64,000 nt of DNA, taken from NCBI GenBank assembly GCA_025358925.1, contig JANYHT010000010.1:1-64000 (forward strand), written 5' to 3'. The notes under the pieces were generated by a model. That model was not told the DNA's origin. It made no database searches and worked only from the letters and a program-made list of their open reading frames with translations. Shown one piece after another: positions 29,714 through 51,974 of the stretch. The position numbers and the translations under genes are program-made. Source of the DNA: Gemmatimonadaceae bacterium. GTDB lineage: Bacteria; Gemmatimonadota; Gemmatimonadetes; Gemmatimonadales; Gemmatimonadaceae. Every line of letters begins with the position of its first letter. The first letter of the stretch is position 1.

Positions 29714-32293
29714 ATGCGCCGTTGCTTACCGATCCTGTTCCTTGCCGTCGCCGGCCCATCGCTGTCGGCAGCACAGGAGCACTCCGCGCCTGGGCCGAGT
29801 GCTGCACGCGAGGTGGCACGTGCGCCACGCTCACCACTGTTATTTGGTTCCGCGACGCGCACCACGCAGCCGCCGGTGCTTGACGGTCGCGACGACGATG
29901 TCGCGTGGAAATCGGCGCATGTCATTGATCAATTTCTGGAGTACGAACCCAATTCTGGCGCGACACCGCGATTTCGCACGGAGGTTCGCGTGCTGTATGA
30001 CGACAAGTATCTGTACGTGCTCGGCCGCATGTTTGACCCTGCACCCGACAGCATTGTGTCGTTGCTGTCGCGCCGAGACGTGCGTACAGAAAGTGAGCAG
30101 CTCAAGTTGGTGATTGATTCGTATCATGATCGACGCACTGCGTATCAGTTTGCCGTGAACCCGGCCGGTGTAAAGCGCGATTTTTATGTGTATGATGACA
30201 AGAACGAAGACGATACGTGGGACGCGGTGTGGGATGTTGCGACACGGATCGACTCGTTGGGATGGGTCGCCGAGTTTCGTATTCCGTTTAGCCAAATTCG
30301 ATTCAACAAAGAACGCGACAAGACATTTGGCCTGATGGTGGTCCGCGATATTGCACGCACCAAACAACGCATTTCGTGGCCGCTGCTACAGCGCGACATG
30401 CAGGGCTACGTCTCGCAAGCTGGTGAGATGGACGGTATCAACGGATTGCCGCAGCCTCGGCGTTTGGAAGTAAGTCCGTACGTGGTGACAAAAAACAGTA
30501 CGCGTCGTGATCCGTTGGGGGCGTACTCGACGCCGCAAGCGTTAGCGTTGGGCACTGATATGAAACTCGGCTTGGGTTCAAATCTGACGCTTGACGCGAC
30601 TATCAATCCTGATTTCGGTCAAGTGGAGGCCGATCCATCAGTGCTTAACTTGAGTGCGTTCGAACAATTCTTTGAAGAACGTCGATCGTTTTTTCTCGAA
30701 GGGGCGGGAATTTTTCAGTTTCGGACAGCGTGCAATGATATCGATCAGGGATGTACTGGATTGTTCTACTCGCGGCGCATTGGGCGTTCGCCGCAGTTAC
30801 GCGGTTTATACGGCAACGATGACAGCCCCAGCGCATCGGGCATTCTTGGCGCGACGAAACTGAGTGGACGACTGGCGAGTGGATTGTCTGTCGGCATGTT
30901 GGCGGCGGTGACTGAACGCGAGCTCGGCGGTGAACAGCGCACGTTAGAGCCGCAAAGCACCTATGTGGTTGCCCGGTTGAGCCAAGACCTTCGCCGAGGA
31001 CAAACGGGTATTGGCCTGATGCTGACCGGCGTTGATTGATCACTCGATCAATGGAGCGCGCCATATTTGCGCAACAACGCCGTTACGGGTGGTCTCGATA
31101 TGCGACATCGGTTTGGTAGCAACAATTACGAGGTGTCGGCGAATGTGGCGGCGAGTCGTGTTGCCGGTTCGGCGGCGGCGATTGCGGCGACGCAGCGCAA
31201 TAGTGTGCATCAGTACAACCGACCGGATGATGCGCTGGAATACGACCCCACGCGGACGGCGCTGTCGGGCGATCTCGCACGCATTTCACTGAGCAAGTTT
31301 GGTGGCGGAATTACTCGATTTCAGTCAGTATTTCAGCGTTTCTCGCCCGGCTTTGAGTCTAATGATGTTGGGTTTCAATCACGCGCTGACGAGCAGCTAT
31401 TTCGCAATTGGTTCTCGTTGCAGTACACGAAGCCGCGTTTATTTTATCGCCGCCTGCAGGCCAATTTTAATACGACCAACACGTGGAATACGGCGGGCTT
31501 GGCGCTTGGACAGAGTGTCAATACGAACGTGCATAGCGAGTTAAACAACACGTGGTGGATTCACGCGGGCGGCAATCTGGAGGGTCTTACCGCAACGTAT
31601 GATGATCGTGTGGCGCGTGGTGGTCCGGCGGTACGTCAGAGTCGGTCGTGGAGTATGTGGGGCGGCGTGGAGTTTGATCGTCGGAAGTGGCTGACGCCGG
31701 TTGTGTTCACAGGCGCACATCAAGGTGACGCGGGCAAGTCGTCCGGGTGGTGGATCAACCCGTCGTTGAATGTGCGCGTTGCTTCACGGATCTCTGCGTC
31801 GGTCGGAGCGAATTACAATCACGAGGTCAACGACGCGCAGTGGTTCACGAATGTTGCATCGACAACGGGCGGACCAACCCGCTACACATTTGCGCGATTA
31901 GATCAGACCACGGTGAGCATGACGGGGCGCATCAACTACACCGCCTCACCAACCCTCTCGCTGCAACTGTACGCACAACCGTTTGTGAGCACGGGCGACT
32001 ACAGCGACTGGCGCGAGCTGAAGGATCCACGCGCCGCTGCGTATTCCGATCGGTTTACGCGCTACAGCACGTCGCGGCCCAGCGGATTTAATGTTCGTGA
32101 TTTCAATTCCAACACGGTCATTCGGTGGGAATATCGACCGGCGTCAACGCTCTTTTTTGTGTGGCAGCAGGGGCGCGATGGCAGTGATGCAACGGCCACG
32201 GGTTTCAAGTTTCGGCGCGACGTGTCTGGGGTGTTCGACTTACATCCGATGAACACGTTTTTGATCAAGGCGAGCTTTTGGTTTACTCCGTAG
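29714..32293 (+). pseudogene. DUF5916/CBM9-like outer-membrane protein interrupted by one in-frame TGA
   Basis: The intact reading would be about 859 residues: signal peptide (ILFLAVAGPSLSAA), a CBM9-like N-terminal domain (LDGRDDDVAWKSAHVIDQF, RTEVRVLYDDKYLYVLGRM) and a beta-barrel DUF5916 domain ending in an aromatic FWFTP. Codon 442 is TGA at 31037-31039. The frame then continues as SLDQWSAPYLRNNAVTGG to 32293 with no shift, a seamless family match. The family has an Arg or similar there; CGA to TGA is a one-base change. Either a nonsense mutation or a sequencing error. Two proteins (start TTG 31067 for the second) are unlikely to fold separately. Confidence 0.8.
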
Positions 32294-33663: not shown

Positions 33664-34128
33664 TCAGCGGTCGCGCCGCAATTCTTGAATGTGCTCGTTC
33701 AGGAAATAGTGCGATAACGTCTCGTCAGGCAGTGCCTCTGCGCCATCAATCACGCCCACACACGACGCCGTCCCACAGAGACACGTAAACGGCGTCGCCA
33801 TGCGCCACTCCGTGGAGGGGTAGAAAAAACCGAGCTCTTCACCCTTCGGGATATCGCGAATGGCAATCACCGCAAACGACGTCGTGTCGACAATGACATT
33901 TGGATCGCACGAATGATTGAGGTATGTCAGTAACCCCAGCCCATCAATATGCCGATGCGCGGAGATCTGTACGGTGTATTTGCTCGGCGCATCAACCTCT
34001 TCGTATCCAATAATTGGCGCGATCACCTCGCCGGCTTGCACGTTCTTCCCGGCGACAATACGCTTGCCCTTGAGATCATCGTCAGGCATCACCATCAGCG
34101 AGTAGGCCTGCGACGTCGATTCAATCAT
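33664..34128 (-). CDS. SET-domain protein methyltransferase (stand-alone)
   Basis: The 154-residue protein has the SET core: GLLTYLNHSCDPNVIV (the NHS-C-x-P-N SAM/substrate motif), FAVIAIRDIPKGEELGFFYPS, and a post-SET Cys cluster CLCGTASCVG. Most bacterial SET proteins methylate lysine side chains or lysine-like amines. It is the last gene of the four-gene ATP-grasp operon; its ATG overlaps the TGA of the membrane gene (ATGA). It is a relative of the SET domain fused to the second ATP-grasp, so the operon carries two SET domains. Confidence 0.88.
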   Translation of the reverse strand: MIESTSQAYSLMVMPDDDLKGKRIVAGKNVQAGEVIAPIIGYEEVDAPSKYTVQISAHRHIDGLGLLTYLNHSCDPNVIVDTTSFAVIAIRDIPKGEELGFFYPSTEWRMATPFTCLCGTASCVGVIDGAEALPDETLSHYFLNEHIQELRRDR

Positions 34129-34994
34129 GATGAAACCTCATCGGTTGGTATGCGGCGCAGAATATCTTTCAGCGCACTGAGTCGTTGAATGGTGTACGGA
34201 ACGGTTTCAAGTCCGGCGGCAAATTTCAGAATGTAATTGTAAATCACGATGATACCGCCAACCTGTAGCGTTGTGCGTCCCATGCTGGTCGTCACCAAAA
34301 GTGATCCAGTGATCACAAGGAGCACGAGCACTTCCGTCGCGCCAAAATTCCACGCCTCTTGATCGGATAGACGAATTTGCCAACGACGCAGCGCGTGATA
34401 ATGCGTGGTGATTGCGGTCGCGTCAGTACCAGCAATGATGTCCACTTGTTTTTCCAGCTCGTCGTGTTTGCCTTGGCTGAGCCGCATCGTTGCGCGTCCG
34501 TACACACCACTTAACAACAGCACCGGCAGTAACACACCGAGGCAAATCAGCGTGACGGTACTGTCATAGAGGTAGAGAATGACCAGCGAGCCAATGACGT
34601 TGTAGAGCGCTTCAATGACGTAGTTAAAATCAAATTCAAGAAAATCCACCACCTGTCGCGCGAGCGTCGAGTGCGCACTGAGTTTGGACACGTCACGTTG
34701 CGCACCACTGCGGACCAGCACCCGCGTCACAAATGACGTGTAAATCGCCGTAAAGGTGCGCGTGTCATACATGTGCCGCGCCGTACCAATGAGCAACCAC
34801 GCGAGGTGTACCACTGTGAGGCGAATAAGACCGCTGTAATGACCGGCCAGTAACCCGTCGACCGCGACGCCCAAAAAATATGGACGCATCAACGTGCCCA
34901 GCATCTCCAGCGCAAACAACGTGTACGTCAGCGCGAGTTGATACCGAAACTCGTGAAGCACGCGCGTGATAGACGTGGTCCGAATTTCGGTCAT
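34125..34994 (-). CDS. Stand-alone six-helix ABC exporter membrane domain (no ATPase)
   Basis: Start at ATG 34994 (MTEIRTTSITRVLHEFRYQL), overlapping the upstream TGA as ATGA. About 289 residues with six helices in an ABC exporter (type IV) pattern and coupling regions, for example VDFLEFDFNYVIEALYNVIGSLVILYLYD and GRATMRLSQGKHDELEKQVDII. There is no Walker A, signature or Walker B anywhere in it, and no ATPase gene in the operon. It resembles the ABC_membrane_3-type six-helix domain found alone in some bacteria. It may need an ATPase encoded elsewhere or act as a different carrier. Confidence 0.8.
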   Translation of the reverse strand: MTEIRTTSITRVLHEFRYQLALTYTLFALEMLGTLMRPYFLGVAVDGLLAGHYSGLIRLTVVHLAWLLIGTARHMYDTRTFTAIYTSFVTRVLVRSGAQRDVSKLSAHSTLARQVVDFLEFDFNYVIEALYNVIGSLVILYLYDSTVTLICLGVLLPVLLLSGVYGRATMRLSQGKHDELEKQVDIIAGTDATAITTHYHALRRWQIRLSDQEAWNFGATEVLVLLVITGSLLVTTSMGRTTLQVGGIIVIYNYILKFAAGLETVPYTIQRLSALKDILRRIPTDEVSS

Positions 34995-36424
34995 TCGGAT
35001 CTCATCGCGGCCTCGCGCGCGCTTACGGAATTGCCAGCTGCACCGCGCACCGTACCTCGACAGCGTGCAGCGCCACAGCTGCATTGAAACGGTTCGCTTT
35101 GCTCGTTCATCATCATGCCATAGTCCAGCGTGAGCTCCTCACCCTTCGCAATAGCGCGCACCGCAACCACGTTGAGCCCCACATACACGGTGCTTGGGTC
35201 ACACGAATGATTTTGCGGTGACCACGCCCGCGGGTCCGTATCCCACAAGGCATACACCTCGGCGCTCAACGGATACGCGTATCGACGGAATGCCCGCTGA
35301 TCGTCGCTGCTCCAGTCGGCGTACACGTGACGCTGCGTCACGATACGATGCGCGCGGCCTTCGCCGCGATAGACCACGCCCCCTTTGGGTAACGCCTGTG
35401 TGGCAAAAATTCCGTAGCCAGAGACGCCGTTGCCTTGCACACGGTACGCTGGCTGACGGATCGCGTGACGCGCCAGACCCTCGGAGATTATCCACGTGGC
35501 AAATCCCGCTTGGCCGATACCGTCATAGCGCAGGATATGATCGGCAGAGCCTTCATATCCATCAGCGTAAAATACCGAGCAGGTGAAATTGACTTCGAGA
35601 AAAAATAATTCGCCGGCTGCGTTCATGCGAAAGTCCATGCGCGCATATCCAACGCCACCAAAGGCCGCGAACACGCGTTGCGCGGCGCCTTGCAGTTGTG
35701 CTCGCAGCGCATCGTCGTGGACGGGCACGTTGGCATTCGGATGCAAGTCCGACGTCTTGAGCGCATAGGTTTTATACAACGTGCCTTCGGGAAACTGATA
35801 TTCGACCGGCATCAATGCACGCGCGGGCGCACATTCATTTGTACTACCCAGCACCAATACCGTAAACTCGCGGCCGGCGATGTACTCCTCGACCAAAAGC
35901 TCGTCGTATTCGTCCAGCAGCTGACTGACCTGCGTCACCAACTCGCGTTCGTCACGCACGAACGAATGCGCGTCGATGCCTAAGCTGTCACCAGCGTGTG
36001 ACGGCTTGACAAACAATGGAAATTGCAGTCGCGTCGCGACGTCGTGTGCGTCAGCCACAGTGCGCACCAACCCATGTGCCGGCGTGCGTACATCGGCCGT
36101 ATACGCGACGTACTTCATCAAGGCCTTGGACGGATCGTACAGGTGCGCTGGCGGACCCGTGTACGGCAGATTGAGCAGGTCAAGCGAATAGATAACGTCG
36201 ATGGACGGCACGTCCCAATCCAAATAGCCTTCGCACAAATTGACGAAAATATCGTAGCCCTCGCGAGACAATCGCTTGAGCTGTTTATATGTGGTCAACT
36301 TGTTCAATGCGACGTGATGCACTGTGTGTTGCGGCAAGAGCGCGGAGAGATCACGCGCCGGATCGTAGTTGCCGTAGTCAATCGCGGACGACGAATAGTC
36401 CGGCTGCAACACACACACCTTCAT
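34991..36424 (-). CDS. ATP-grasp ligase fused to SET methyltransferase domain
   Basis: The 477-residue protein combines two enzymes. Residues about 1-315 form a D-Ala-D-Ala-ligase-like ATP-grasp: LFVKPSHAGDSLGI (ATP lysine and small loop), LVEEYIAGREFTVLVLGS, GGVGYARMDFRM and FFLEVNFTCSVF (metal site). Residues about 330-460 form a SET domain: GYGIFATQALPKGGVVYRGEG, PQNHSCDPSTVYVG, GEELTLDYG and post-SET CSCGAARCRG. Fusing amide-bond formation to methylation in one chain implies both act on the same product. ATG 36424 overlaps the upstream ATP-grasp stop (ATGA). The substrate is unknown. Confidence 0.85.
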   Translation of the reverse strand: MKVCVLQPDYSSSAIDYGNYDPARDLSALLPQHTVHHVALNKLTTYKQLKRLSREGYDIFVNLCEGYLDWDVPSIDVIYSLDLLNLPYTGPPAHLYDPSKALMKYVAYTADVRTPAHGLVRTVADAHDVATRLQFPLFVKPSHAGDSLGIDAHSFVRDERELVTQVSQLLDEYDELLVEEYIAGREFTVLVLGSTNECAPARALMPVEYQFPEGTLYKTYALKTSDLHPNANVPVHDDALRAQLQGAAQRVFAAFGGVGYARMDFRMNAAGELFFLEVNFTCSVFYADGYEGSADHILRYDGIGQAGFATWIISEGLARHAIRQPAYRVQGNGVSGYGIFATQALPKGGVVYRGEGRAHRIVTQRHVYADWSSDDQRAFRRYAYPLSAEVYALWDTDPRAWSPQNHSCDPSTVYVGLNVVAVRAIAKGEELTLDYGMMMNEQSEPFQCSCGAARCRGTVRGAAGNSVSAREAAMRSE

Positions 36425-37551
36425 GACGCTGCGATGGGGGCGAATGACGGAACTGCCGCTAATGCGTCGTCAAGAATTTCACTGATTGCCTGGGCGTATG
36501 ACTGGTTGGCGAAGCGAAGGATCGCCCCAATCGACGTGCAATCTTCGTCCTCGGAAATGCCGCACTGTGCGTTCACCTCGAGTACGTAGAGTTGATCGGT
36601 GACGGGATCGTAGCGCAGGTCCACGCGACCGTAGCCCGTGCCTTCCACCGCTACGTACGCCGCCCAACTGATGTCGCTGATCGATTGGCTCAACGCATCT
36701 GGCGCTGCGGCGTACTGCCACAAGTATTCGTCATCGCCGAGTGGTGTTTCGCGCTCGTAGATTTCCCACAGTCGATCGAAGGAGAGGAGCTGTTCGTTCG
36801 CGGGGAGACGCTCGTGGAAGACACGTTCGATGGGGGGATACACGCGGCGGCGCTCCGGCGCATCGTGCGAACCAATAATGAACGTCGTAAATTCTCGGCC
36901 GGTGATGAACGATTCGACAAAGACACCGCCGCCGGTGAGGTTCCAACCGCGATACCCATCGTATAATAGCTCGACTTCGCGACGTAACTCGGTGGGTGTG
37001 TTCACGACCGACTTGATGGTGATGCCCATGCTTCCAGCCGACACAGCCGGCTTTACAATGAGTGGTGCGCCGAGCCGTGTGAATACGCTCGCATCGTTGA
37101 CGGCATCGCGAGCGAGCACTTCCCACGCGGGCGTGGGCACACCGGCGGCGTCGAAGGCCGTCTTCATCACGATCTTCGACGTTGTCAACTCGTAAAAGCG
37201 CGCGTCGGCACCGGTGTGGCAGAGACCCAACGACTGCATGCGACGTATGACGCTCACACCCGGCACACCGTTAAGCTCGTCGCCGTCGCAAAGATTGAGC
37301 ACAATGGGCGTGTACCCGTCCGAGTCGCGGATAACGCGATTGATCGTGGACGCAAAGTTGTCCATCGTGACCAGTTCCCACCGCCACTCCAACGCCAACG
37401 TCGAGAACACGCGTTCATACTCGGCGCGACTCTGACTGTAGTCGTTGTAGTAATCGAGGTTGAGGTCTGCGGTCTCGATATACGGCGCAAATACCCAAAC
37501 AAGTAGCGGCGCGGTGAGCGGCGCATCTGCAGCCAGCAGCGTTGCGGTCAT
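36421..37551 (-). CDS. ATP-grasp ligase, D-Ala-D-Ala-ligase-like
   Basis: Start at ATG 37551 (MTATLLAADAP). About 376 residues with YTPIVLNLCDGDELNGVPG (N-terminal domain), APLIVKPAVSAGSMGITIKSV (ATP-binding), VFVESFITGREFTTFIIG, and GYGRVDLRYDPVTDQLYVLEVN (metal-binding D/E-x-N). It is a paralogue of the next gene's ATP-grasp part and has no SET domain. Such ligases join a carboxylate to an amine with ATP. First gene of the operon; the 275 bases upstream hold no other gene and should contain its promoter. Confidence 0.87.
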   Translation of the reverse strand: MTATLLAADAPLTAPLLVWVFAPYIETADLNLDYYNDYSQSRAEYERVFSTLALEWRWELVTMDNFASTINRVIRDSDGYTPIVLNLCDGDELNGVPGVSVIRRMQSLGLCHTGADARFYELTTSKIVMKTAFDAAGVPTPAWEVLARDAVNDASVFTRLGAPLIVKPAVSAGSMGITIKSVVNTPTELRREVELLYDGYRGWNLTGGGVFVESFITGREFTTFIIGSHDAPERRRVYPPIERVFHERLPANEQLLSFDRLWEIYERETPLGDDEYLWQYAAAPDALSQSISDISWAAYVAVEGTGYGRVDLRYDPVTDQLYVLEVNAQCGISEDEDCTSIGAILRFANQSYAQAISEILDDALAAVPSFAPIAAS

Positions 37552-37825
37552 GTGGGCTGGATAAGGTGTGGCCGACGCGGTCGCATCATAGTACACGTGT
37601 TACTGCGCGTCGTCCAATGCACATATCGACGACTGGCGACGCGTGACCTATACATTGGATTAACAAGAGACAAACTCAGGACCGCGACCTCCACGCCCGA
37701 CACAAGCTGCGGAGGCGCAATTCTTAGCCTTCACGCCGTTTGCGTCGCGCGGCCGAAGCATCTTATATCTTGCAAAATGGTTCGAGCAGGATGGCCGACG
37801 CTCCCATCTCCCGAGAACGCGCGAT

Positions 37826-38417
37826 ATGAAGTGGAACCTCGACAAGGGCTTGTTCGGTGGTCTCGCGCTCTTGGCGATTTTGCTGTTGGGCAATGCAAAC
37901 GATTGGTTTCTTAAACCTGCAGCAACTGCGGAATGACGTTGCATCGGAGACGCACGCGCAGCGCGTCGCGACAGCTGCCACTACGCTGCTCTCACTGGCG
38001 AGCGATGCAGAGGCAGGGCAGCGCGGTTTTCTGATCTCAGGAGAAGACACATATCTCGAACCGTACTTTACAGCTCGAAACGCGTTGTCCACCATCGTAG
38101 ATACACTGCGTGTGCTCACGCTAAACGATCGCGAGCAGCAGGCCAGAATCACTGCATTGCTACGCGTGCTTGCCAAGCGTCTAAAATTGTTGGAGAATGC
38201 AATAGTGACCTATCAAACGCTGGGGTTCGATGCGGTGCGTCGGCAGGTCCTGACGAATAGTGGCACGGTCACCATGGATACACTGCGAACGCAAACCGCT
38301 CTAATTCTTTCAGCCGATAGTGCGGTGTTGTCGGCGCGCCGATCACGCGCGACGCGTTCGTATCAAATCGCGCTGCTTGCGGACGTCGTCATGTTGTTGC
38401 TTGACTACGTGCGTTAA
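37826..38417 (+). pseudogene. CHASE3-type sensor fragment, frameshifted and truncated
   Basis: ATG 37826 opens MKWNLDKGLFGGLALLAILLLG, a first membrane helix, then meets a stop; the correct continuation lies in another frame (MQTIGFLNLQQLRNDV from about 37893) and runs to 38417. This restored chain is CHASE3: QRVATAATTLLSLASDAEAGQRGFLISGEDTYLEPY, then IALLADVVMLLL, the beginning of the second helix. There it stops; the histidine kinase or cyclase output domain is absent. Its TAA overlaps the stop of the LigD-like gene. One base gained or two lost, plus loss of the 3' part, make a remnant. Confidence 0.75.
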
Positions 38418-39316
38418 GATTTCTCTAACGACTCCAGCGTGTCGATGAGATGCTGACTGATGCGCTGCTTACAACTGAGCATGCCCGACCATGGATTCGC
38501 GCGCTGCCGCTTTACCGTTGTCAGCGCGAATGCGAGTGGGAATGGCTCGCCGTGCCGCATGGCGCGTACCGAACGCCACGAACGCGGTACTGCCACGGGC
38601 GCGCCGGCACGCGCGCGCGTTGACCACGGTGCGACCGCCGTTGCACCACGAACGTTGCGCAAATAGTCGATAAAGATGCGTCCGGTACGCGCAGCCTTTG
38701 CGGCGACATCTACGAGTCCCGTTGGGTTAGTGTGCACCAGCTGCGAAGTGATCAGGCGCGAAAAACGACTCACTTGTTCCCACGTGGCACGTCGCGCAAT
38801 TGGCACCACCACATGCAGGCCTTTGCCGCCTGTTGTTTTCACCCACGACTGCAGTTCATAACTGAGCAATAGCATTCGCAATCGATTGGCCGTCTGTACA
38901 ACGCTCGACCATGCGACGTCTGGCGACGGATCCAAATCGAAAACGACACGATCAGGCGAATCGGGTAGATCAATCCGCGATGCCCAGCAATGGAATTCAA
39001 CCACACCGAACTGAACAAGCGAGACCAGACCTTTGGCAGAACGAACATAGAGATATGGTGCGACTTCTCCGTCGGCTTCGACAATGTCGATCGTACCGAC
39101 ACCGTCCGGCAATGCGCCCGTCCAATGCTTTTGATAGAAGCAGGCGCCATTCGCTCCGGCCGGGCATCGCAACACTGACAGCGGACGACACGCAACGTGT
39201 GGTAGCATCTGCGGCGCGACGTTGGCGTAGTACGATGCGAGTTCGCCTTTGCTCACGGTCGAATCTGCGAACATCAACCGGTCCGCATGCGTGATGGTGA
39301 CACCCAAGACATCCAT
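38414..39316 (-). CDS. LigD-type polymerase/primase domain protein
   Basis: Start at ATG 39316 (MDVLGVTITHADRLMFAD). The 300 residues match the polymerase domain of NHEJ LigD: YYANVAPQMLPHVACRPLSVLRCP, FYQKHWTGALPDGV, DLDPSPDVAW (the D-x-D metal site) and GGKGLHVVVPI. No ligase, phosphoesterase domain or Ku is beside it. It can add or fill nucleotides at DNA breaks. Stand-alone polymerase units occur in several bacteria. Its 3' end butts against the truncated CHASE3 frame. Confidence 0.87.
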   Translation of the reverse strand: MDVLGVTITHADRLMFADSTVSKGELASYYANVAPQMLPHVACRPLSVLRCPAGANGACFYQKHWTGALPDGVGTIDIVEADGEVAPYLYVRSAKGLVSLVQFGVVEFHCWASRIDLPDSPDRVVFDLDPSPDVAWSSVVQTANRLRMLLLSYELQSWVKTTGGKGLHVVVPIARRATWEQVSRFSRLITSQLVHTNPTGLVDVAAKAARTGRIFIDYLRNVRGATAVAPWSTRARAGAPVAVPRSWRSVRAMRHGEPFPLAFALTTVKRQRANPWSGMLSCKQRISQHLIDTLESLEKS

Positions 39317-39395
39317 TCTTTCTCGTGGTGCAATTGACGGGCCATGGCGTAGTTGATTTATACCACCGCAAAACAACTGCTGACCGCGAATTACG

Positions 39396-39468: not shown

Positions 39469-42400
39469 TTATTTGATCGCGTTCACTCGACCGGCGTTCA
39501 GGTTGTCGAAATTGAGAATTGTGTTGAAGACCAAGAAGTACGAACCGATCGTCGTGCCGCGATACACCGGATTATTGGCGAACAACACCACGTGGCCTTT
39601 GTCGAGCGGTGAGTCTACCACCACGGGTCGTTGCGCAATGGTCCCACCACCATCCAACAGTCCCGACACTAACAACACATTCTGCTCGGCGAAGCGCAGC
39701 GGTACGCGCGGACGCTGTGCAGGTGGAATGATGTTGAGTGGCGTGCGCAACTGATCTTCGGTGGGCACGGCCACTTGCCACGGCATCGTTGGTGCTGGCG
39801 TGGGAAGCGTGTCGACGCGCGCAATCATGGCCGGTCGTCCTTGCACGACGTCGGCATCGTCCGCGGTGCCGCGCCCTGTTGCGCGAACGGGTGCTCCACC
39901 GGCGCCACGTCCCCCACCACCGCCGCCGCCACGACCCGCGCGCGAATTGCTCACGCCCAGTGCCATTCCGTCCGCGCTGTACACCGCAAGGTTATCCGGA
40001 ATGCCGTACACAATCGGACTCTTGTCATCCACGAGTTTTGTGCGGAGTAGCGTTCCAACCACTTCCTTGTTTGACGGCGTGGTAGAACTGACGCCGCTGG
40101 TGAGACCGAACTGAATAGCGAATTCTGCAGTGCTCTCTACCGTGATCATCACGCCACCGTTGCTGACAAACTGCTGCATTTTGGCTAAGCCATCCCAGCC
40201 GAGTCCGGGGCGCATGTCGTCGGTTTGTGCCCAGGTGCCGATGGCTGGCGTTTCGGGAGTGTTCTTCCACGGAATCGCGTTGCGCCACTGCGGCATGCCT
40301 TGAATGATCGAGAGTGGTGAACCGCTACCTGGTGCGAGAATGAGCACGTCGTAGATCGCGTTCAAGTCGCCCTTTTTGGGAATGTCCTGAAAGCTGATGT
40401 AGTCGTACGGAATGGAGAGCGCGTCGAATGCTTGCCGCCACCAGCCTTCTGTTTGTGTACTGCTCCAACTGTGTACGAACGCGACGCGTGCGGCGCGAAG
40501 CGGATGCATGGCCACCGTTGGTGCGGCGGCGAGTGCGGTGACGTCGAGGCCTAGCGTTTTGGTTGCTTTGTCTAGGGCGTCACGTTCCACATTACGAATG
40601 ACAAACGATCCGCGATTAAACCTTTTGCCTGATGCCTCGAACGGCTCTTCGGCCGCTTGGAAGTCGGCGTCTTTGAACTGGTAGCGCAGCGATGCCAGTG
40701 CGTTGTCCGCATTGTGATTAATCGCGAACACTGTGCCGTTGCCCGTTACGCCACCCGGTGCCGTGATCACTCCCGTCACTTTCGTCACGGGCACTTTCAA
40801 CACCATGGTATCGAGTACGCGTGCCGCTTGTACCGCGAAGCCTTCGGGGAATGTCCAGCCTGTGTCGTCGTACGGATTTTTTTGCGGATCGGTGGGCGAC
40901 CAAAATTGGTAGTCGAGAATCGCATCGGCGATGCGCGAGTACGGTTGGTCCATGCGAATGATGTAGCTACCGGCCGGGAACTTGCGCATCTCCATTGTTG
41001 GCGGCTTGACCGAGTCAGTGACAGCCGGTGCGTTTGCTGCTGCACCACTGCGACCACCGCGTCCCGCACCATTCGCCGCCGCAACGGGGCGACGCACTGG
41101 CATGCTGACCGTGAACTCGGATGTCGCGCGCGAAATTTCCACGGCTTGTTTTTGCAACACGCGCAGGAGGTCGGCTTGTGCGCCGAGTCGTGGATCTGCC
41201 GCTGACAACACATACGCGGCCGGACCTTCTGTCGTGGCCTTCGCGATGGAGCGTTTGCTCTTCTCGTAAAAGTTGCGCAGCAGTTGCAAGCGATTGTTCG
41301 CTGTGTAGCTGAGCGAGACCAACAACCCTGTTTGTTCGTAGTTGTTGTTGTTGCGCAGCGACCACTTGAAGCGGCCCGTGATTGGCGGGTTTTGTCGATA
41401 CCAACTGCGTGACGTTTCGTTGGGCGACAGTACACGTTCGACGGTTTCGGCCGTGCCACCATTGCCAAACGTTTCGTACAGGCGACTGATGCCGTTGTGT
41501 GTCGCGGCGATGAACATCAAGTAGCCCGGCGACCATGTGTCGAAGCCACCGTGTGCGTACACGCCCGGCATGCCGAGTCGTGTCATTTCTTGCACGTTGT
41601 TCCAGCCGATGATTTGCCATTCGTTGGTGAGGAGCGGATCAATCCACGCGTTGTATGGTCCGTCGCCAATGGTGTTGTCGTATAAGAACGAGCCGGATTC
41701 GTGCAGGTCGTGCAACACTTGTGCTTTGAAACCGACGTAGGTGTTGAGCACATTTTGCGTGAGCTTGAGTGTCATGCCCATGGCGTCGCGATTGTTATCG
41801 TGTGCGACGTAATGTCCCCAATAGATCACATTTGGCGGCGTCTGTCCCGGGTGCGTCATCTTCCAATTGAATACGTCGACCACGCGATCGCGTCCGTCCA
41901 CTTCAACGATGGGTGTGATGAGTGTGATGACGTGATCGCGGATGTTGCGAATGTATGGGCTCTCGTCGACCGCTAAGCGATATGCCAACTCCATTAGTGC
42001 CGACGGCGCGCCGGCTTCGGTGCTGTGAATGGTGCCGGTGACGTAGTACACTGGCGCTGCGGTCTTCGCGATTTCGTCTGCTTGCGCGTCGTTCATGCCG
42101 ATGGTGCGCGGGTCTGCCAACTTCGCCAACTGCGCCTTGTTTGCATCGAGTTTGTTCATCAATGCTTCTGACGCGACGGCGACGGCGATCATCTCGCGCC
42201 CTTCTTCTGTCGTGCCGATGGAGAAGACGCGTACCCGTGGTGACGACTTCGCGAGCAGTCGCATGTACGCGTACACTTCCGTGCTGTTGGGCAACTTGGT
42301 GGGCGCGCCGGCGATGTCGCCTAAGATCGCTTTCGGTGTTGGGACTGTTTTAGACGCTGGTAAATAATCGACGAGCGCAGACATGAAGAACGGTTCGGTC

Positions 42401-42579
42401 GTGTACTCGCGAATTTTCTTCGTGTACTCGGCGTCGATGGCTTGTGCGGGATTGCGACCGGGTTTGGCGGCGGCGTCTTGCGCGAACGCCGAGTGCGGGG
42501 CGAGGGTGAGTAGCGCGGAGAGTGCGAGCAGCGGTGACGTGCGGATGACCGCGTCTGGCCGGATGGAGCGCCACAACAT
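39469..42579 (-). CDS. Very long M14-type zinc carboxypeptidase-like protein, secreted
   Basis: Start at ATG 42579 behind GAGG, giving a signal peptide (LLALSALLTLAPHSAFA-QD). About 1036 residues. The M14 domain (about 60-430) shows TIGTTEEGREM, the zinc pair HSTEAG and the later HDLHESG, consistent with a carboxypeptidase. The remaining 600 residues include a glutamine-amidotransferase-like/ThuA-type domain (DVLILAPGSGSP, FVSNGGVMITVEST) and low-complexity Gly/Arg stretches (GRGGGGGGGRGAGG). This long form is typical of Gemmatimonadota-like genomes. It should act in the periplasm or outside. Substrate unknown. Confidence 0.88.
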   Translation of the reverse strand: MLWRSIRPDAVIRTSPLLALSALLTLAPHSAFAQDAAAKPGRNPAQAIDAEYTKKIREYTTEPFFMSALVDYLPASKTVPTPKAILGDIAGAPTKLPNSTEVYAYMRLLAKSSPRVRVFSIGTTEEGREMIAVAVASEALMNKLDANKAQLAKLADPRTIGMNDAQADEIAKTAAPVYYVTGTIHSTEAGAPSALMELAYRLAVDESPYIRNIRDHVITLITPIVEVDGRDRVVDVFNWKMTHPGQTPPNVIYWGHYVAHDNNRDAMGMTLKLTQNVLNTYVGFKAQVLHDLHESGSFLYDNTIGDGPYNAWIDPLLTNEWQIIGWNNVQEMTRLGMPGVYAHGGFDTWSPGYLMFIAATHNGISRLYETFGNGGTAETVERVLSPNETSRSWYRQNPPITGRFKWSLRNNNNYEQTGLLVSLSYTANNRLQLLRNFYEKSKRSIAKATTEGPAAYVLSAADPRLGAQADLLRVLQKQAVEISRATSEFTVSMPVRRPVAAANGAGRGGRSGAAANAPAVTDSVKPPTMEMRKFPAGSYIIRMDQPYSRIADAILDYQFWSPTDPQKNPYDDTGWTFPEGFAVQAARVLDTMVLKVPVTKVTGVITAPGGVTGNGTVFAINHNADNALASLRYQFKDADFQAAEEPFEASGKRFNRGSFVIRNVERDALDKATKTLGLDVTALAAAPTVAMHPLRAARVAFVHSWSSTQTEGWWRQAFDALSIPYDYISFQDIPKKGDLNAIYDVLILAPGSGSPLSIIQGMPQWRNAIPWKNTPETPAIGTWAQTDDMRPGLGWDGLAKMQQFVSNGGVMITVESTAEFAIQFGLTSGVSSTTPSNKEVVGTLLRTKLVDDKSPIVYGIPDNLAVYSADGMALGVSNSRAGRGGGGGGGRGAGGAPVRATGRGTADDADVVQGRPAMIARVDTLPTPAPTMPWQVAVPTEDQLRTPLNIIPPAQRPRVPLRFAEQNVLLVSGLLDGGGTIAQRPVVVDSPLDKGHVVLFANNPVYRGTTIGSYFLVFNTILNFDNLNAGRVNAIK

Positions 42580-42913
42580 GAAAACCTCGTTGAGAGTCGG
42601 GGGCTGAGCGGAAGCGACGTCAGCAAGCGGGGAAGAACGTGGCGCGGGGGTGTGGGCGCAAGGACGGGGGGGGGGTGATGGTGCGGCGGTTTGGCGCGCG
42701 GGCAGTTTATGCTGCATTATGCGCTGTATAAATCCGGCGAGGGCGCGCGTGGACGAATTGGTGTAAGGTCAAGACCTCGTGCGATTTGCGGACATTTGTT
42801 AGACGAGGTGCATTTTTGTTTAGGCTGCAGAATTGCGCTACATAAGCGGCGCGACGCTGCCTTCGCATACAGTCTAATCCCCGTTAGATAGATAGATCTT
42901 TTAACCGATCGGC
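42580..42913. other. Intergenic region with a run of ten G and a GATA repeat
   Basis: About 330 bases without a gene. A 10-base G run lies at 42666-42675 in the leader of the minus-strand M14 gene (C run in its mRNA). TAGATAGATAGAT occurs at about 42885-42897, before the plus-strand hypothetical. GTATAAATCC (about 42724) is a possible -10 element. Confidence 0.6.
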
Positions 42914-45199: not shown

Positions 45200-48100
45200 C
45201 TATCGGTCGAGGCAAACTTTCAGTTGCAGCGCCGCGTCTTTGACAAAATCACGAATGTAGGATTCGTGATCGCCAGGGACCACATGCACATTAATCTCAC
45301 CGCGTACGATGTCGGACCAACCCGCAGCGGGATCTGTGTTTTCGCGCTCACTAGCAATCATATCTACCGAGCCGTGATACGCTGTTGGTTGGTACCGTCG
45401 CAGCGTGCCCACGTAGCCGGCGCGCACGAGGTCGGCGGGGTCTACTACGCATCCTGGCACCGGCGTCGCGTCGAAGGCCAAGCGCATCTTGTGGACCAGG
45501 TATGACCACCGATGCTTCCAATCGAGCACTCGCGTTACCTGCCAGTGGTGTACCACTCGGTCGAGATAGTAGTTGAGGTTCCATCGCGCCGAAAGCCGAC
45601 GAAGTATGCCCCTCCGCAACTCGCGCAGAAAACGCTGGCGTGTCGGGAACTCAGTATCCATCATCACAAGCGTATGCACCTGCTCCCCCTCGCGTTCGAG
45701 TTGTCTTGCGAGTTCGAATGCGACGACACCGCCAATGCAGTTGCCAACCAATCGGTACGGACCGCGCGGCTGCACCGCACGAATTTCGTCGAGATAGTCC
45801 GCCACCATCGCTTCGACACTGGCGTGAGCCGACTCCACGCCGTCGGCACTTCGGGCGCGCAACCCATAGAACGTGAACCCCTCGCCGACGAAGTGAACTA
45901 GTCTGGCGTAGACAAGGAATTCATAATCGCCCCCGAACCCACCAGGCAGGAAGAAGATCGAGCGATCGCCAGTGCCGGGTTTGAGTAGAAAAAGATATCG
46001 CCACGGCGATGGTGCTCTTCGATCACGGAACTGATTCGATGCCTCGGCGCTGATGCGCAGCGTGAGGTCAGCGACCGTCGGATGTTCAAACAGCGCTCGG
46101 AGCGGCAAGTCGACGAGCAGCTCCGTGCGGATCCGCGCGACGATCCTCGTCGCCAGCATTGAGTGTCCGCCGAGGTCGAAGAAGTTCGCATCGGACGAGA
46201 TCTGCTCGATCTGCAGTACGTCGCGCCATATCGCCGCGACCGCTTGCTCGATGTTCGTAGTGGCGGAGATGAACGGTCGACCAGGATTGCCGACGTCGTC
46301 GTAAGGTGACGGCAGCAACGTCCGATTTACTTTTCCCGTCGGTGACAACGGAAGTGACTCCAGGACGACAACGCGTGACGGGATCATGTACGCTGGAAGC
46401 GTGAGCCGCAGATTCTCGCGCATCGCGTCTGCATTGAACGCGCCTTCGGGTTTCGCGACCACATAGGCCACCAGCGTTTGTTCGCCGCGAACATTTTCGC
46501 GAACGACGACCGCGACATCACGAATCCCCGCCTGCTGTCGGATCACATTCTCGATCTCGCCGAGCTCGATACGGTAACCGCGAAGCTGCACCTGATCATC
46601 GCGTCGTCCAATAAACTCGATCAGACCATCCCGACGATAGCGCGCGAAATCGCCGGTCCGATACATGCGTGAGCCTGTGCTTCCAAATGGGTTGGGAATA
46701 AAGCGCTCGGCGGTCAGCGCCGGATGACCGACGTAGCCGCGAGCCAAGCCATCGCCCGCGATATACAGTTCTCCTACGACACCAACTGGAACGGGTTGCC
46801 GATACGCATCAAGCAGATACACCTCAGTATTCGCGATCGGACGACCTATCGGCACCGATCGACTAGACACAGCGAGCGGCTGCAGCATACGATGACAGCA
46901 GGCAAACGTCGTGCTCTCAGTCGGACCGTAGCCGTTAATGATCGTAGTGTTCGGCAGCAACTCTTGCGCGCGCAATACGTGTGGCACCGACAGCGCCTCT
47001 CCCCCCACCAACAGCTGTCGGACGCCGGCGAGCGCTTCCGGCGCGCTGTCGATGACACTGTTGAACATCGACGACGTGAGCCACAGCGTATTGATCGCGT
47101 GCGCGCGCAGCACGTCGCCGAGTTCATGCGGAGAAGGAAGGTGCCCTGCATACAGCACGCATGTGCCGCCGTGAAGCAGCGCGCCCCAGATCTCGAAGTT
47201 CGAAGAGTCGAACGACAGCGACGCCATCTGCAGGATCCGCTGTTGCCGATTGAGCTCGGCGAAGTCGATCCCGAAAAGCAAACGCAGTACGCCGCGATGC
47301 GGCACTGCGACGCCTTTCGGGCGCCCCGTCGAACCGGAGGTGTACATCACGTACGCCAGGTCATTCGGGCCGGTACTGCATTCCGTATTTGTCGACGGAT
47401 TGGCTGCGAGCTGAGTGCGCTCCGCGTCGACACAGATCATCGGTCTGCCCCATGGCGCACATTTGGCCCGATTCGCTGTATCTGTCAGCAGAATACGAAC
47501 GTCGGTCTCCTGCGCGATGAACGACAGTCGCTCGTCAGGATAGCCAGGGTCCAGCGGTACGTAGGCGCCGCCGACCTTCAGAATAGCGAGCGTGCTGACG
47601 ATCATGTCGACGCTCCGCCCCATGCAGATGCCAACCATCACGCCGAGACCCACCCCATCGAACCGGAGCCGGTGCGCCAACTGATTCGCGCGCGCATTCA
47701 ACTGCGCATAAGTCAGTCGGTCGTCTCCCGATACGAGGGCTGCCGCATCTGGTGTCGCCTCGACCTGTTCTTCGAAGCGGCGATGAATTGTGGTGTGGTC
47801 GGGATACGCGACGTGCGTGTGATTCCATTCAGACAGAAGCATCGCACGCTCAGACGCGTGCAGCATCTCAAGGTCATGGATGCGTGTGTCCGGGTTCGCG
47901 ATCACCGCGTTCACCAGCGCGCGAAAATGTGCGGCCATCTGCTCCACAGTCGCTAAATCGAAGAGCGCCGTGTTGTACTCCCACAGGAACGTGACGCCGC
48001 TGCGGTTATACTGCCGATCGCGCTTAGATCGCTGCTCAGCATGCGGAACAGCGACGACGTTCAAGTCGAACTTGGCAGACCGATTGCTGATCAGCTCTAC

Positions 48101-51100
48101 ACAACTGAATTCGATGCCGGGTATGGTGGGCTCATCGAGTGGAGAGTCATGAAAGCTGAACATGACTTGAAACAGCGGATTCCGGCTGGCGTCGGTTCTG
48201 GGATTAACCGCGCGAACTACATGATCGAACGGCGCGTCCTGATGTGCGAACGCCTGAATGGCTGTTTTTCGAACATCGGCCAAAAACGTGCGAAAGCTCA
48301 GATTTTCCCGAAGCACAGATCGGAGCACGACATTATTAACCAGCATGCCGAGGAGGTCCTCAGTCTCGGTCCACCGTCGGTTCGCGATGCCACTACCGAT
48401 GCAAAGATCTTCCTGTCCCGAGTAGCGATGCAACAGCGTCAGGAACACCGCTTCAAGCGTGTGGAATAGTGTGGCGCCCACTCGGTCGCTGAGTTCGCGC
48501 AGCGCGGCGTACACCTCGTCGCTGAGTTCAAACTCATGCACTGCGCCTTGAAAACTTTGAACGGGCGGACGCGCGCGATCCGTGGGCAGTTCAAGCACCG
48601 ACGCGTCATGCAATTGTGCGGTCCAGTACTCAAGCTGCCTAGTGAGCTCGTCACCGCTTAACCATTGGCGTTGCCAGACCGCAAAGTCAGCAAATTGAAT
48701 CAGTGGCGGTTGCAGGGGCGACGGCACACCGGTTGAATAGGCGTGATACAGCTGCAACAACTCGCGACGGAACACGTTGAATGACCAACCGTCGTGTATT
48801 AGATGATGCTCGATGTGCAGTAAGGCGAACTTGTCATCATCCAATCGAAACAACGACCACCGAATCAGTGGGAGGAGCGACATATCAAATAACGTCGACG
48901 TTTCGATCTGAATGTGTTGCTGCAACTCGGCGTCACGTCGCTCGGGCGGAATAGTGCGTAAGTCGACGATGGGCATCTCCACTGAAAACGGCGAATGCAC
49001 CGACTGCGAAGGCACGCCGTCGGTATCGCAGAACGTCGTGCGCAAAATCTCGTGACGGTTAATAAGCGTGTTGAGACACGTGCGCAAAATCGTGGTATCC
49101 AGTGGCCCAGCGAAACACAACAACGTCTGAAAGTTGTAGGCGAGACTCATGGGATCGAGCTGCTGAAGAAACCAGACGCGCTCTTGCGAAAAGGACAGCG
49201 GGAGTGGACGATCTCTCGGTGCGATTGAGATGGAAGAGCGCACGACGCGTGTCGCGGTCTTTCCACCGTGTGCCGCAACGGCCTTCGCGAGGTCAGCGAC
49301 GGTAACGCTTGCGAAGGTCACGGACAACGGCATGTCGATGCCGAATACATCTCGGATGCGTGACGTCACTTGCGTGGCCCGCAACGAGTGGCCGCCGAGC
49401 TCAAAGAAATTGTCGTGCGCGCCGATCTCTTCGATGCCGAGCACTGTCGACCAGATACGCGCCAACGCAATCTCGAGGTCGCCCGACGGCGCCACGAACG
49501 TCGCACCGGCGCTCTCGCGCGTGAAGCGCGGTGCGGGGAGGCGCGCCTTGTCAGTCTTACCCGTTGGCGTGAGAGGCAGCGCATCGAGCAACGTCACGCT
49601 GGTCGGTACCATATGAACGGGCAACTTGGTCTTGAGAAACGCGATCAGATCCGTGACGCCCGTAGTCGGCGTGCGCTTAAGAACGACGTAGGCCGCCAAT
49701 TGCTTATCGTGGCGATCATCGTCGCGCGCGACGACGACGACGTCGTGCACATCCGGATGGCTTCGGAGCGTCACCTCAATTTCTCCAAGCTCGATGCGAA
49801 ATCCGCGCACCTTCACCTGATCATCAACCCGGCCCATGAACTCAATGCGGCCGTTGCGGTTCGTGCGCGCAAGATCTCCGGTGCGGTACATCCGTGCACC
49901 CGCCAGGTTACTGCACGGGTCCGGCAAGAATTTCTTCGCGGTCAGCGCGGCGTCATTGAGATAGCCACGCGCCACGCCCGCGCCAGCGATGTACAGCTCG
50001 CCGATAACCTCAACGGCACATGGCTCGCCGTGAGCATCGAGGATACGCGCTGCAGTTCCGTCGATCGGACGACCGATAGGAATCTCGTCGTCCGCCGACA
50101 GGGGTGGTTCATCCGGATCGTTCGGACTGAAGAAGATCGAAGCGACTGTCGCTTCCGTCGGTCCGTACCCGTTGACCCAGCGGATCTGTTCTCCAGCAAG
50201 GTTGTTCCAAGTCGACAACACCTGCGCCGACGCCTTCTGTCCACCCACAATCACCAATCGCAACGCGTCCGAAAGGACATCGTCGTAGTGCGCGAGGTAC
50301 GCCACCCACTCGTGCCAGAAAGCTGTGGGAAGATCTACGACAGAAATGCGCGTATCGCGCAGCCACGCGGTAAAGTCACGCCCCGCTCCGACGACGCCGG
50401 GCGGATGCAACACAATCGCCGCGCCGCGCATCCACGTCGGAAACAGCTCTTCGACCGAGATGTCAAACGCAATCGATGTGCACTGCGCCACGCGGTCGTA
50501 CGGTCGAAGATCAAGGTAGGTCGCGATCGCGAGGTTGTGGTTGACGACGCCGCGATGTTCGACCAGCACACCGCGAGGTACCCCAGTCGATCCGGACGTG
50601 TACATGATGTACGCAAGGTTCCGTGCGGTGACGCCGCTGACCGGTCGCTCGACGGATTCCTGCGCCACCGTTGCCCATTCCGAATCGAGCATCACAGTCG
50701 CGACTACCGCTCCAAGATCGAGCGTCGCGAATTTAGACTGCGTGAGCAGAACACTGGGTCGTGTCTCCTCAACCATCAGCGCGAGCCGATCGCGGGGATA
50801 CTCGGGATCGAGTGGAACGTAGGCACCACCAGCCTTGAGAACGCCGAGTAACGCGACGGTCATCTCGAGTGAGCGCTCAAGACACACGGCGACGCATCGG
50901 TCGGGGCCGATACCTTGTCGTTGCAGATAGTGCGCCAGTTGATTCGCGCGTTGATCGAGTTCTCGGTAGGTGAGCTGCGACGCACCAAATTCAACTGCGA
51001 TAGCGTCCGGGGTCATCTCGACTTGCCGTTCGATCAGTTGATGGATACACATCTCCGTGCAGCGCGCGATCGAGTGCTGCACGGCATCCATAGCGACTCG

Positions 51101-51154
51101 AGAAACGGTAGTGGGACGCATCTGGGGAGTTATCAGGTCGACATTATTAGACAT
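45200..51154 (-). CDS. Two-module nonribosomal peptide synthetase, A-T-C-A-T-TE, with Cys-type thioesterase
   Basis: Start at ATG 51154 (MSNNVDLITP); 1984 residues. A1 (about 35-540) has TSGSTGVPRG (186-191) and TPTGKTDK. T1 has LGGHS, Ser about 590. The condensation domain (about 650-1085) has HHLIHDG at 783-789. A2 (about 1125-1610) has TSGSTGRPKG. T2 has LGGHS, Ser about 1665. The thioesterase (about 1720-1984) has GNCIGG with Cys about 1806, Asp in MMDTE and His in GDHES. The protein should build a dipeptide, one unit per module, and release it by hydrolysis or cyclisation. My reading of the ten specificity positions is D-I-E-D-V-V-G-V-A-K for A1 (no assignment) and D-S-F-W-L-G-G-F-A-K for A2 (aliphatic, perhaps valine-like). 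A divergent phosphopantetheinyl transferase serves it. Confidence 0.93.
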   Translation of the reverse strand: MSNNVDLITPQMRPTTVSRVAMDAVQHSIARCTEMCIHQLIERQVEMTPDAIAVEFGASQLTYRELDQRANQLAHYLQRQGIGPDRCVAVCLERSLEMTVALLGVLKAGGAYVPLDPEYPRDRLALMVEETRPSVLLTQSKFATLDLGAVVATVMLDSEWATVAQESVERPVSGVTARNLAYIMYTSGSTGVPRGVLVEHRGVVNHNLAIATYLDLRPYDRVAQCTSIAFDISVEELFPTWMRGAAIVLHPPGVVGAGRDFTAWLRDTRISVVDLPTAFWHEWVAYLAHYDDVLSDALRLVIVGGQKASAQVLSTWNNLAGEQIRWVNGYGPTEATVASIFFSPNDPDEPPLSADDEIPIGRPIDGTAARILDAHGEPCAVEVIGELYIAGAGVARGYLNDAALTAKKFLPDPCSNLAGARMYRTGDLARTNRNGRIEFMGRVDDQVKVRGFRIELGEIEVTLRSHPDVHDVVVVARDDDRHDKQLAAYVVLKRTPTTGVTDLIAFLKTKLPVHMVPTSVTLLDALPLTPTGKTDKARLPAPRFTRESAGATFVAPSGDLEIALARIWSTVLGIEEIGAHDNFFELGGHSLRATQVTSRIRDVFGIDMPLSVTFASVTVADLAKAVAAHGGKTATRVVRSSISIAPRDRPLPLSFSQERVWFLQQLDPMSLAYNFQTLLCFAGPLDTTILRTCLNTLINRHEILRTTFCDTDGVPSQSVHSPFSVEMPIVDLRTIPPERRDAELQQHIQIETSTLFDMSLLPLIRWSLFRLDDDKFALLHIEHHLIHDGWSFNVFRRELLQLYHAYSTGVPSPLQPPLIQFADFAVWQRQWLSGDELTRQLEYWTAQLHDASVLELPTDRARPPVQSFQGAVHEFELSDEVYAALRELSDRVGATLFHTLEAVFLTLLHRYSGQEDLCIGSGIANRRWTETEDLLGMLVNNVVLRSVLRENLSFRTFLADVRKTAIQAFAHQDAPFDHVVRAVNPRTDASRNPLFQVMFSFHDSPLDEPTIPGIEFSCVELISNRSAKFDLNVVAVPHAEQRSKRDRQYNRSGVTFLWEYNTALFDLATVEQMAAHFRALVNAVIANPDTRIHDLEMLHASERAMLLSEWNHTHVAYPDHTTIHRRFEEQVEATPDAAALVSGDDRLTYAQLNARANQLAHRLRFDGVGLGVMVGICMGRSVDMIVSTLAILKVGGAYVPLDPGYPDERLSFIAQETDVRILLTDTANRAKCAPWGRPMICVDAERTQLAANPSTNTECSTGPNDLAYVMYTSGSTGRPKGVAVPHRGVLRLLFGIDFAELNRQQRILQMASLSFDSSNFEIWGALLHGGTCVLYAGHLPSPHELGDVLRAHAINTLWLTSSMFNSVIDSAPEALAGVRQLLVGGEALSVPHVLRAQELLPNTTIINGYGPTESTTFACCHRMLQPLAVSSRSVPIGRPIANTEVYLLDAYRQPVPVGVVGELYIAGDGLARGYVGHPALTAERFIPNPFGSTGSRMYRTGDFARYRRDGLIEFIGRRDDQVQLRGYRIELGEIENVIRQQAGIRDVAVVVRENVRGEQTLVAYVVAKPEGAFNADAMRENLRLTLPAYMIPSRVVVLESLPLSPTGKVNRTLLPSPYDDVGNPGRPFISATTNIEQAVAAIWRDVLQIEQISSDANFFDLGGHSMLATRIVARIRTELLVDLPLRALFEHPTVADLTLRISAEASNQFRDRRAPSPWRYLFLLKPGTGDRSIFFLPGGFGGDYEFLVYARLVHFVGEGFTFYGLRARSADGVESAHASVEAMVADYLDEIRAVQPRGPYRLVGNCIGGVVAFELARQLEREGEQVHTLVMMDTEFPTRQRFLRELRRGILRRLSARWNLNYYLDRVVHHWQVTRVLDWKHRWSYLVHKMRLAFDATPVPGCVVDPADLVRAGYVGTLRRYQPTAYHGSVDMIASERENTDPAAGWSDIVRGEINVHVVPGDHESYIRDFVKDAALQLKVCLDR

Positions 51155-51239
51155 ACAACATCTGAAAGGGCATCGCAGCCTAAAGGTTCGAGATAGATAA
51201 CATGAGCACAGGGACAGCATTCACCAGCAGCCCGTACCA

Positions 51240-51974
51240 ATGACGATTGGCGAGACAGTCTGGTCATCCGGTCCATGGCCGTTCCGATTCGTTCCGCTTA
51301 TCGGCACGAACCAAGACATTGTCCTTGCCGCGCTCTTTCCAGATGGCGTGGTGTTTGAGCAGATGGATCCGGCCAGCGCGGACATCCGGACCTTGCACGC
51401 TGAAGAGGCGGCGATCGTTGTCAATGCCGTAGAGAGTCGACAAAGGGAGTTCGCGGCTGGTCGTTTGTGCGCTCGGCGCGCACTTGCTCGACTCGGTAGC
51501 CCCGTGGCCGCGCTCCTCGTGGAGTCGGATAGACGCCCGCGATGGCCCTATGGCACCGTCGGGAGTATTTCCCACACCGAAGGATTTTGCGGGGTCGCCG
51601 CAACGAACCTCGCAATTGTAATCGGAATTGGGTTTGACGTCGAACCGAGGGCGGCACTGCCACTCGACGTCTGGCCCACCGTATTATCCGACGCCGAGCA
51701 TCAAAGTCTGCACGCAATGCCCGACCGCGATCGCGGAGTCTATGCGCGATTGGCGTTTAGTGCCAAGGAGGCGTTCTACAAGTGCTATCGAAGCACGGGA
51801 GGAGGCTGGCTTGATTTTCACGACATCGAGATTCGTTTCTCGGCGGCACCGGGCGAGATGACAGCGGAAGTTCTGGCACGGAAACGCCTGTGGAATCGCG
51901 CACCGAGCGTGCTCGGTGCGTTCGCAATATCGAGTCAGTTCATCTTCACAGCGTTCACCATGATCGAACGATAG
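51240..51974 (+). CDS. 4'-phosphopantetheinyl transferase, EntD/Npt type
   Basis: The 244-residue protein has the family motifs in order: EFAAGRLCARRAL, GSISHTEGFCGVA, GIGFDVEP (metal Asp and Glu), and FSAKEAFYKC (metal Glu, Lys). It moves the phosphopantetheine arm from CoA onto the Ser of the two T domains of the divergent NRPS. Start codons of the two genes are 85 bases apart, so they share a promoter region. It is the only accessory enzyme seen with this NRPS. Confidence 0.92.
   Translation: MTIGETVWSSGPWPFRFVPLIGTNQDIVLAALFPDGVVFEQMDPASADIRTLHAEEAAIVVNAVESRQREFAAGRLCARRALARLGSPVAALLVESDRRPRWPYGTVGSISHTEGFCGVAATNLAIVIGIGFDVEPRAALPLDVWPTVLSDAEHQSLHAMPDRDRGVYARLAFSAKEAFYKCYRSTGGGWLDFHDIEIRFSAAPGEMTAEVLARKRLWNRAPSVLGAFAISSQFIFTAFTMIER

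Follow-up and report, generated by a model that had tools for sequence, protein, structure and literature searches.

The window, a stretch of 64,000 nucleotides of a Gemmatimonadaceae bacterium, was found to carry a real and widely conserved four-gene cassette which has apparently not been described before. On balance, the four genes probably act together, converting free amino acids into a methylated, peptide-like small molecule with neither a ribosome nor an NRPS involved, and exporting this product. A self-contained cassette which ligates and methylates amino acids and then exports the product would be the simplest account of the observations.

The original prediction, made from the letters of the window, described a four-gene ATP-grasp/SET/ABC-membrane operon with an ATGA overlap at three of three junctions, and both the coordinates and the Pfam assignments bear this out. 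The genes follow each other on the minus strand, from 37551 to 33664, in the order AG1, AG2-SET, membrane gene and solo SET (Table 1), and each of the junctions is a 4-base ATGA overlap. The predicted parts, namely two Ddl-like ATP-grasp proteins, one of them fused to a SET domain, a stand-alone six-helix ABC membrane domain and a free SET protein, were likewise recovered by Pfam. Dala_Dala_lig_C was detected in AG1 (E 2e-15) and in AG2-SET (E 9e-23), and the SET domain in the fusion (E 2.5e-9) and in the solo protein (E 2e-11). P0003 matched ABC_membrane_3 over nearly the whole profile (E 3.9e-42), and no ABC_tran domain was found in it by Pfam. Within AG2-SET, the ATP-grasp part spans approximately residues 1-325 and the SET part approximately residues 327-460. 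An alternative start of AG1 is the GTG at 37596. The arrangement of the operon is not due to chance, since the 4-base AG1/AG2 overlap recurs in 18 of the 21 Gemmatimonadota loci which possess both genes, and other phyla were found to have the gene set as well.

Table 1. Features of the four-gene operon, in positions of the window.
Feature	Coordinates	Strand	Description
ATP-grasp 1 (AG1)	36421..37551	-	376 aa; D-Ala-D-Ala-ligase superfamily carboxylate-amine ligase; ATG start at 37551
AG2-SET (ATP-grasp 2 with C-terminal SET fusion)	34991..36424	-	477 aa
Fused SET domain of AG2-SET	34994..35461	-	NHSC, DY and post-SET CxCGxxxC motifs
ABC membrane protein (P0003)	34125..34994	-	289 aa; six-helix; ABC_membrane_3 (PF13748); without nucleotide-binding domain
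Solo SET protein (P0004)	33664..34128	-	154 aa; BurB-class

Relatives of the fusion were collected by a scan of genome contigs, which returned 544 candidates, and the best 80 of these 544, belonging to several phyla, were kept. Around AG2-SET in these best 80, many of whose contigs are short, AG1 was present in 69 cases; 46 had a solo SET and 24 a membrane gene. The homologues were checked for having only random neighbours; the partners were found instead to co-occur across phyla. Among 197 Chitinophagaceae genomes, AG2-SET and the solo SET are each present in 59 and both in 57 (Fisher 1.6e-44, kinship ignored), and six of these genomes keep the two genes even though these are distant from each other or placed on separate contigs. 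The membrane gene was found in 26 of the same 197 genomes, 25 of which also possess AG2-SET (Fisher 2.1e-14, kinship again ignored). The cassette occurs in approximately 30% of the sampled Chitinophagaceae and also in Gemmatimonadota, Cyanobacteria, Chloroflexi, Verrucomicrobia and others. The usual order in Bacteroidota is SET, AG1, AG2-SET and membrane gene, whereas the SET gene comes last in the window. AG1 adjoins AG2-SET in nearly all the Gemmatimonadota family members found. In this phylum, close solo SETs occur in G000, G273, G122 and G286, and the membrane gene is present in four of the 45 genomes tested, only where AG2-SET is present. Not every part of the cassette is obligatory, because in 18 of the 21 Gemmatimonadota loci with AG1 and AG2-SET neither a solo SET nor a membrane gene adjoins the pair, and AG1 is missing from distant relatives of AG2-SET (35-38%).

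To our knowledge, SET domains are known almost exclusively as protein-lysine methyltransferases, BurB being a rare exception. This SET enzyme S-methylates free methionine to S-methylmethionine (PMC12542666, PMC7496086). As judged from profile, predicted fold and tree, the solo SET is nearer to this amino-acid methyltransferase than to the histone methyltransferases. The profile of the solo SET family matched BurB over nearly the full length with an E of 2.7e-24, the best histone methyltransferase reaching only 1.2e-10, and the predicted structure of the solo SET (pLDDT 90) has BurB as its best fold match. The solo SETs and BurB group together in the tree at 94%. BurB is also the best sequence match of P0004, and the two share the region Y-x-STE...F-x-C-x-CG...C...I-x-GA. 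The fused SETs constitute a separate clade at 100%, which rules out the two SETs as recent duplicates; the fused SET is about equally close to BurB and to MLL1 in the profile search. Neither SET is missing the key residues for which both were checked: the N, H and C of NHSC, the catalytic Tyr and the Cys of the post-SET CxCGxxxC are invariant or nearly so in both. The 'amine methylation' of the original prediction could not be established, as the nearest characterised SET enzyme, BurB, methylates sulphur. A second group of BurB-like SETs, displaying an N(A/T)TE motif, was observed elsewhere in Gemmatimonadaceae genomes (L154-L163), and more distant BurB-like SETs lie at other sites in several other Gemmatimonadaceae.

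The first rival explanation to be weighed is a modification of proteins or tags, in which amino acids would be attached to a protein by the ATP-grasps and the lysines of this protein methylated by the SETs. The almost equal fit of the fused SET to MLL1 is compatible with this, in that a protein may be the substrate of this domain, and the eukaryotic TTLL12 does unite SET-like and tubulin-ligase (ATP-grasp) domains (PMC3520985). Both ligases fall on the Ddl branch, however, the solo SET groups with BurB, a transport gene belongs to the set and the genes are not accompanied by one for a conserved small protein, so that protein modification is considered unlikely. An S-methylmethionine/DMSP-type osmolyte pathway, in which S-methylmethionine would be made by the solo SET and stored, through the ligases, in peptide or conjugated form, is given a similarly low probability. 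The closest match of the solo SET is indeed an S-methylmethionine maker (PMC12542666, PMC7496086), but the identity between the two is merely about 30%, the SAM contacts His72, Arg133 and His138 of BurB are not all kept in alignments of the solo SET family, and neither burI-, burD- or burE-like genes nor genes for an SMM decarboxylase, an aminotransferase and an aldehyde dehydrogenase were found among the operon neighbours scanned.

A search of 102 loci for a precursor peptide brought up no conserved small ORF. The largest family is present in 10 of these loci, which all share one flanking neighbourhood, and the small ORFs that did come up are situated next to flanking genes or antisense to them. 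It is therefore unlikely that a ribosomal precursor is encoded nearby. On this ground a graspetide-like RiPP, in which the ATP-grasps would cross-link a ribosomal peptide to be methylated by the SETs, was rejected as very improbable. Graspetide loci do typically combine ATP-grasp, methyltransferase and ABC exporter genes (PMC8939145), but the overlaps within the operon leave no space for an internal precursor gene and Pfam assigns both ligases to Dala_Dala_lig_C.

The two ATP-grasp proteins appear to be intact carboxylate-amine ligases whose substrates would differ from those of Ddl, since they keep the ATP and Mg residues, have lost the D-Ala motifs and score far below the Ddl cut-off. Upon alignment with the Ddl of the same genome, AG1 and AG2 retain the Lys and Glu with which Ddl binds ATP, as well as its Arg/Asp/Glu/Asn set, which serves Mg and phosphoryl transfer. 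Neither has the GGxSxE or HGxxGEDG motif or the GMTxxSL loop, by which the two D-alanines are bound in Ddl. The curated Ddl family TIGR01205 has a cut-off of 245.65 bits, and the pair scored 86 and 60 bits, against 304 bits for the separate Ddl gene of the genome. A loss of key residues in the ATP-grasp parts was looked for as well, and the catalytic residues proved invariant on alignment, both in AG1 (K/E/R/D/N, nine homologues) and in AG2-SET (39 sequences). The AF2 model of AG2-SET (pLDDT 92.4, pTM 0.88) has Ddl as its top Foldseek matches among solved structures (E 2.4e-19). A cell-wall role, in which the product of the ligases would be a modified D-Ala-D-X that serves peptidoglycan or resistance to antibiotics, agrees with their membership of the Ddl superfamily but is rejected as highly improbable, given the missing motifs, the true Ddl elsewhere in the genome, the lack of adjoining van-type or cell-wall genes and the presence of methyltransferases, which would be roleless there.

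Neither P0003 nor the rest of the operon was found to supply a nucleotide-binding domain or an NBD gene. At the Gemmatimonadota locus G286, a complete ABC exporter takes the place of the membrane domain between SET and AG1, with a 4-base overlap with AG1; an AG2 without SET converges on this row of three genes. Other variants were encountered. In the Brasilonema locus (L136) a FemAB-like acyltransferase lies between SET and AG1, and loci of the Chloroflexi type (L145, L149) comprise SET and AG2-SET only. A cyanobacterial locus (L144) combines two AG1 copies with an AG2 that has no SET and with an ectoine-synthase-like cupin. Next to them are encoded an HlyD-like protein, a cyclic-nucleotide-binding protein and an NRPS whose single module includes a methyltransferase domain. 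This locus (L144/L187, cyanobacterium UBA8803) is likely a natural-product cluster; its NRPS module was seen to be organized as A-MT-T-TE, with a PRMT5-like methyltransferase match.

The window contains an NRPS as well. This two-module protein of 2006 aa (A-T-C-A-T-TE, 45200-51220) is located approximately 8 kb from the operon and is accompanied by a divergent phosphopantetheinyl transferase (51240-51974). No locus of this genome other than the NRPS locus itself (45200-51974) matched the first A domain of the NRPS at E 1e-60. An NRPS also lies about 10 kb from the cassette copy of G122 and adjoins that of L144. The proximity of NRPS and cassette, although not a general feature, is perhaps no coincidence, and an NRPS as obligatory partner was ruled out, most AG2-SET genomes having no close match. 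Substrate prediction from the NRPS specificity codes was dropped as unsafe, since it yielded no more than an acidic residue, at position 239, in the adenylation domain of L144 and in the first adenylation domain of the window NRPS. Among the other genes of the window are an M14 carboxypeptidase-like protein near the ligase pair (39469-42717; about 1000 aa), a stand-alone LigD primase-polymerase domain protein (38414-39376) and a DUF5916 outer-membrane-type protein (29714-32293) in which an in-frame TGA at 31037 separates two halves that keep one and the same frame. The M14 carboxypeptidase-like protein was also observed near the ligase pair, in varying orientation, in several Gemmatimonadaceae (L051, L053, L055, L058-L060, L062, L064, L067, L096 and L121).

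Of the two readings offered by the original prediction, a methylated and exported peptide-like product or a methylated peptide tag, the former is supported indirectly by the conserved catalytic residues, the co-occurrence of the genes, the BurB-like solo SET, the lack of a precursor and the exporter of G286. The lost D-Ala motifs, the separate Ddl of the genome and the neighbourhood of L144 also speak in favour of the cassette reading, whereas the missing ATPase and NBD gene, the parts which are not obligatory and the likeness of the fused SET to MLL1 speak against it. The synthesis could be envisaged as follows. AG1 and AG2 would each activate a carboxylate with ATP as an acyl phosphate and couple it to an amine, probably sequentially. 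The BurB-class solo SET would methylate a free amino-acid building block on sulphur or nitrogen, and the SET domain fused to AG2 would methylate the substrate or product of AG2 in cis. The ABC-type membrane protein would then export the product, via a borrowed ATPase or another mechanism. More tentatively, the ligase-methyltransferase fusion may define an undescribed and widespread pathway, the products of which would be methylated small peptides of a new class (sulfonium or quaternary ammonium) and the dedicated tailoring enzymes of which would be SETs. Should the cassette reading be true, SET enzymes would be regular tailoring enzymes of small molecules, and the cassette would point to a metabolite that is common in bacteria abounding in fresh water and soil.

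The original prediction knew of no characterised system of this composition, and this still holds: neither the fusion nor the cassette is described in the open papers searched. In these papers, the combination of ATP-grasp and SET domain led only to TTLL12 and to an unrelated paper, and no description was found of ATP-grasp, SET domain and ABC transporter together. The various parts can nevertheless be compared with known systems. Both ATP-grasp proteins share with Ddl the fold and the residues for ATP, Mg and phosphoryl transfer, but they differ from it by the lost substrate-pocket motifs, by scores far under the curated cut-off, by the SET fusion of AG2 and by a context other than the cell wall. 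P0003 has the ABC-type transmembrane domain of the type IV ABC exporters (ABC_membrane_3), but the window operon has no ATPase domain or adjoining ATPase gene, a full exporter being substituted only in G286. BurB (PDB 9l4t, 9l4v), which acts as methionine S-methyltransferase in the malleicyprol pathway of Burkholderia, is likewise a small solo SET protein; its partners in the bur pathway are a decarboxylase, an aminotransferase and a dehydrogenase, whereas the solo SET considered here sits with ATP-grasp ligases. TTLL12 also unites SET-like and ATP-grasp ligase domains in one polypeptide, but it is eukaryotic and its ATP-grasp belongs to another family, that of the tubulin ligases. BacD of bacilysin is an ATP-grasp dipeptide ligase of an antibiotic pathway. 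PGM1 of pheganomycin is an ATP-grasp ligase of another such pathway (PMC8939145). Ligases of this type join amino acids into small peptides, with tailoring and export genes alongside, but their pathways have neither a SET methyltransferase nor a ligase-SET fusion. The cassette, undescribed in the papers searched as is its fusion, would belong with these ATP-grasp ligase natural-product pathways, which are of an already known kind.
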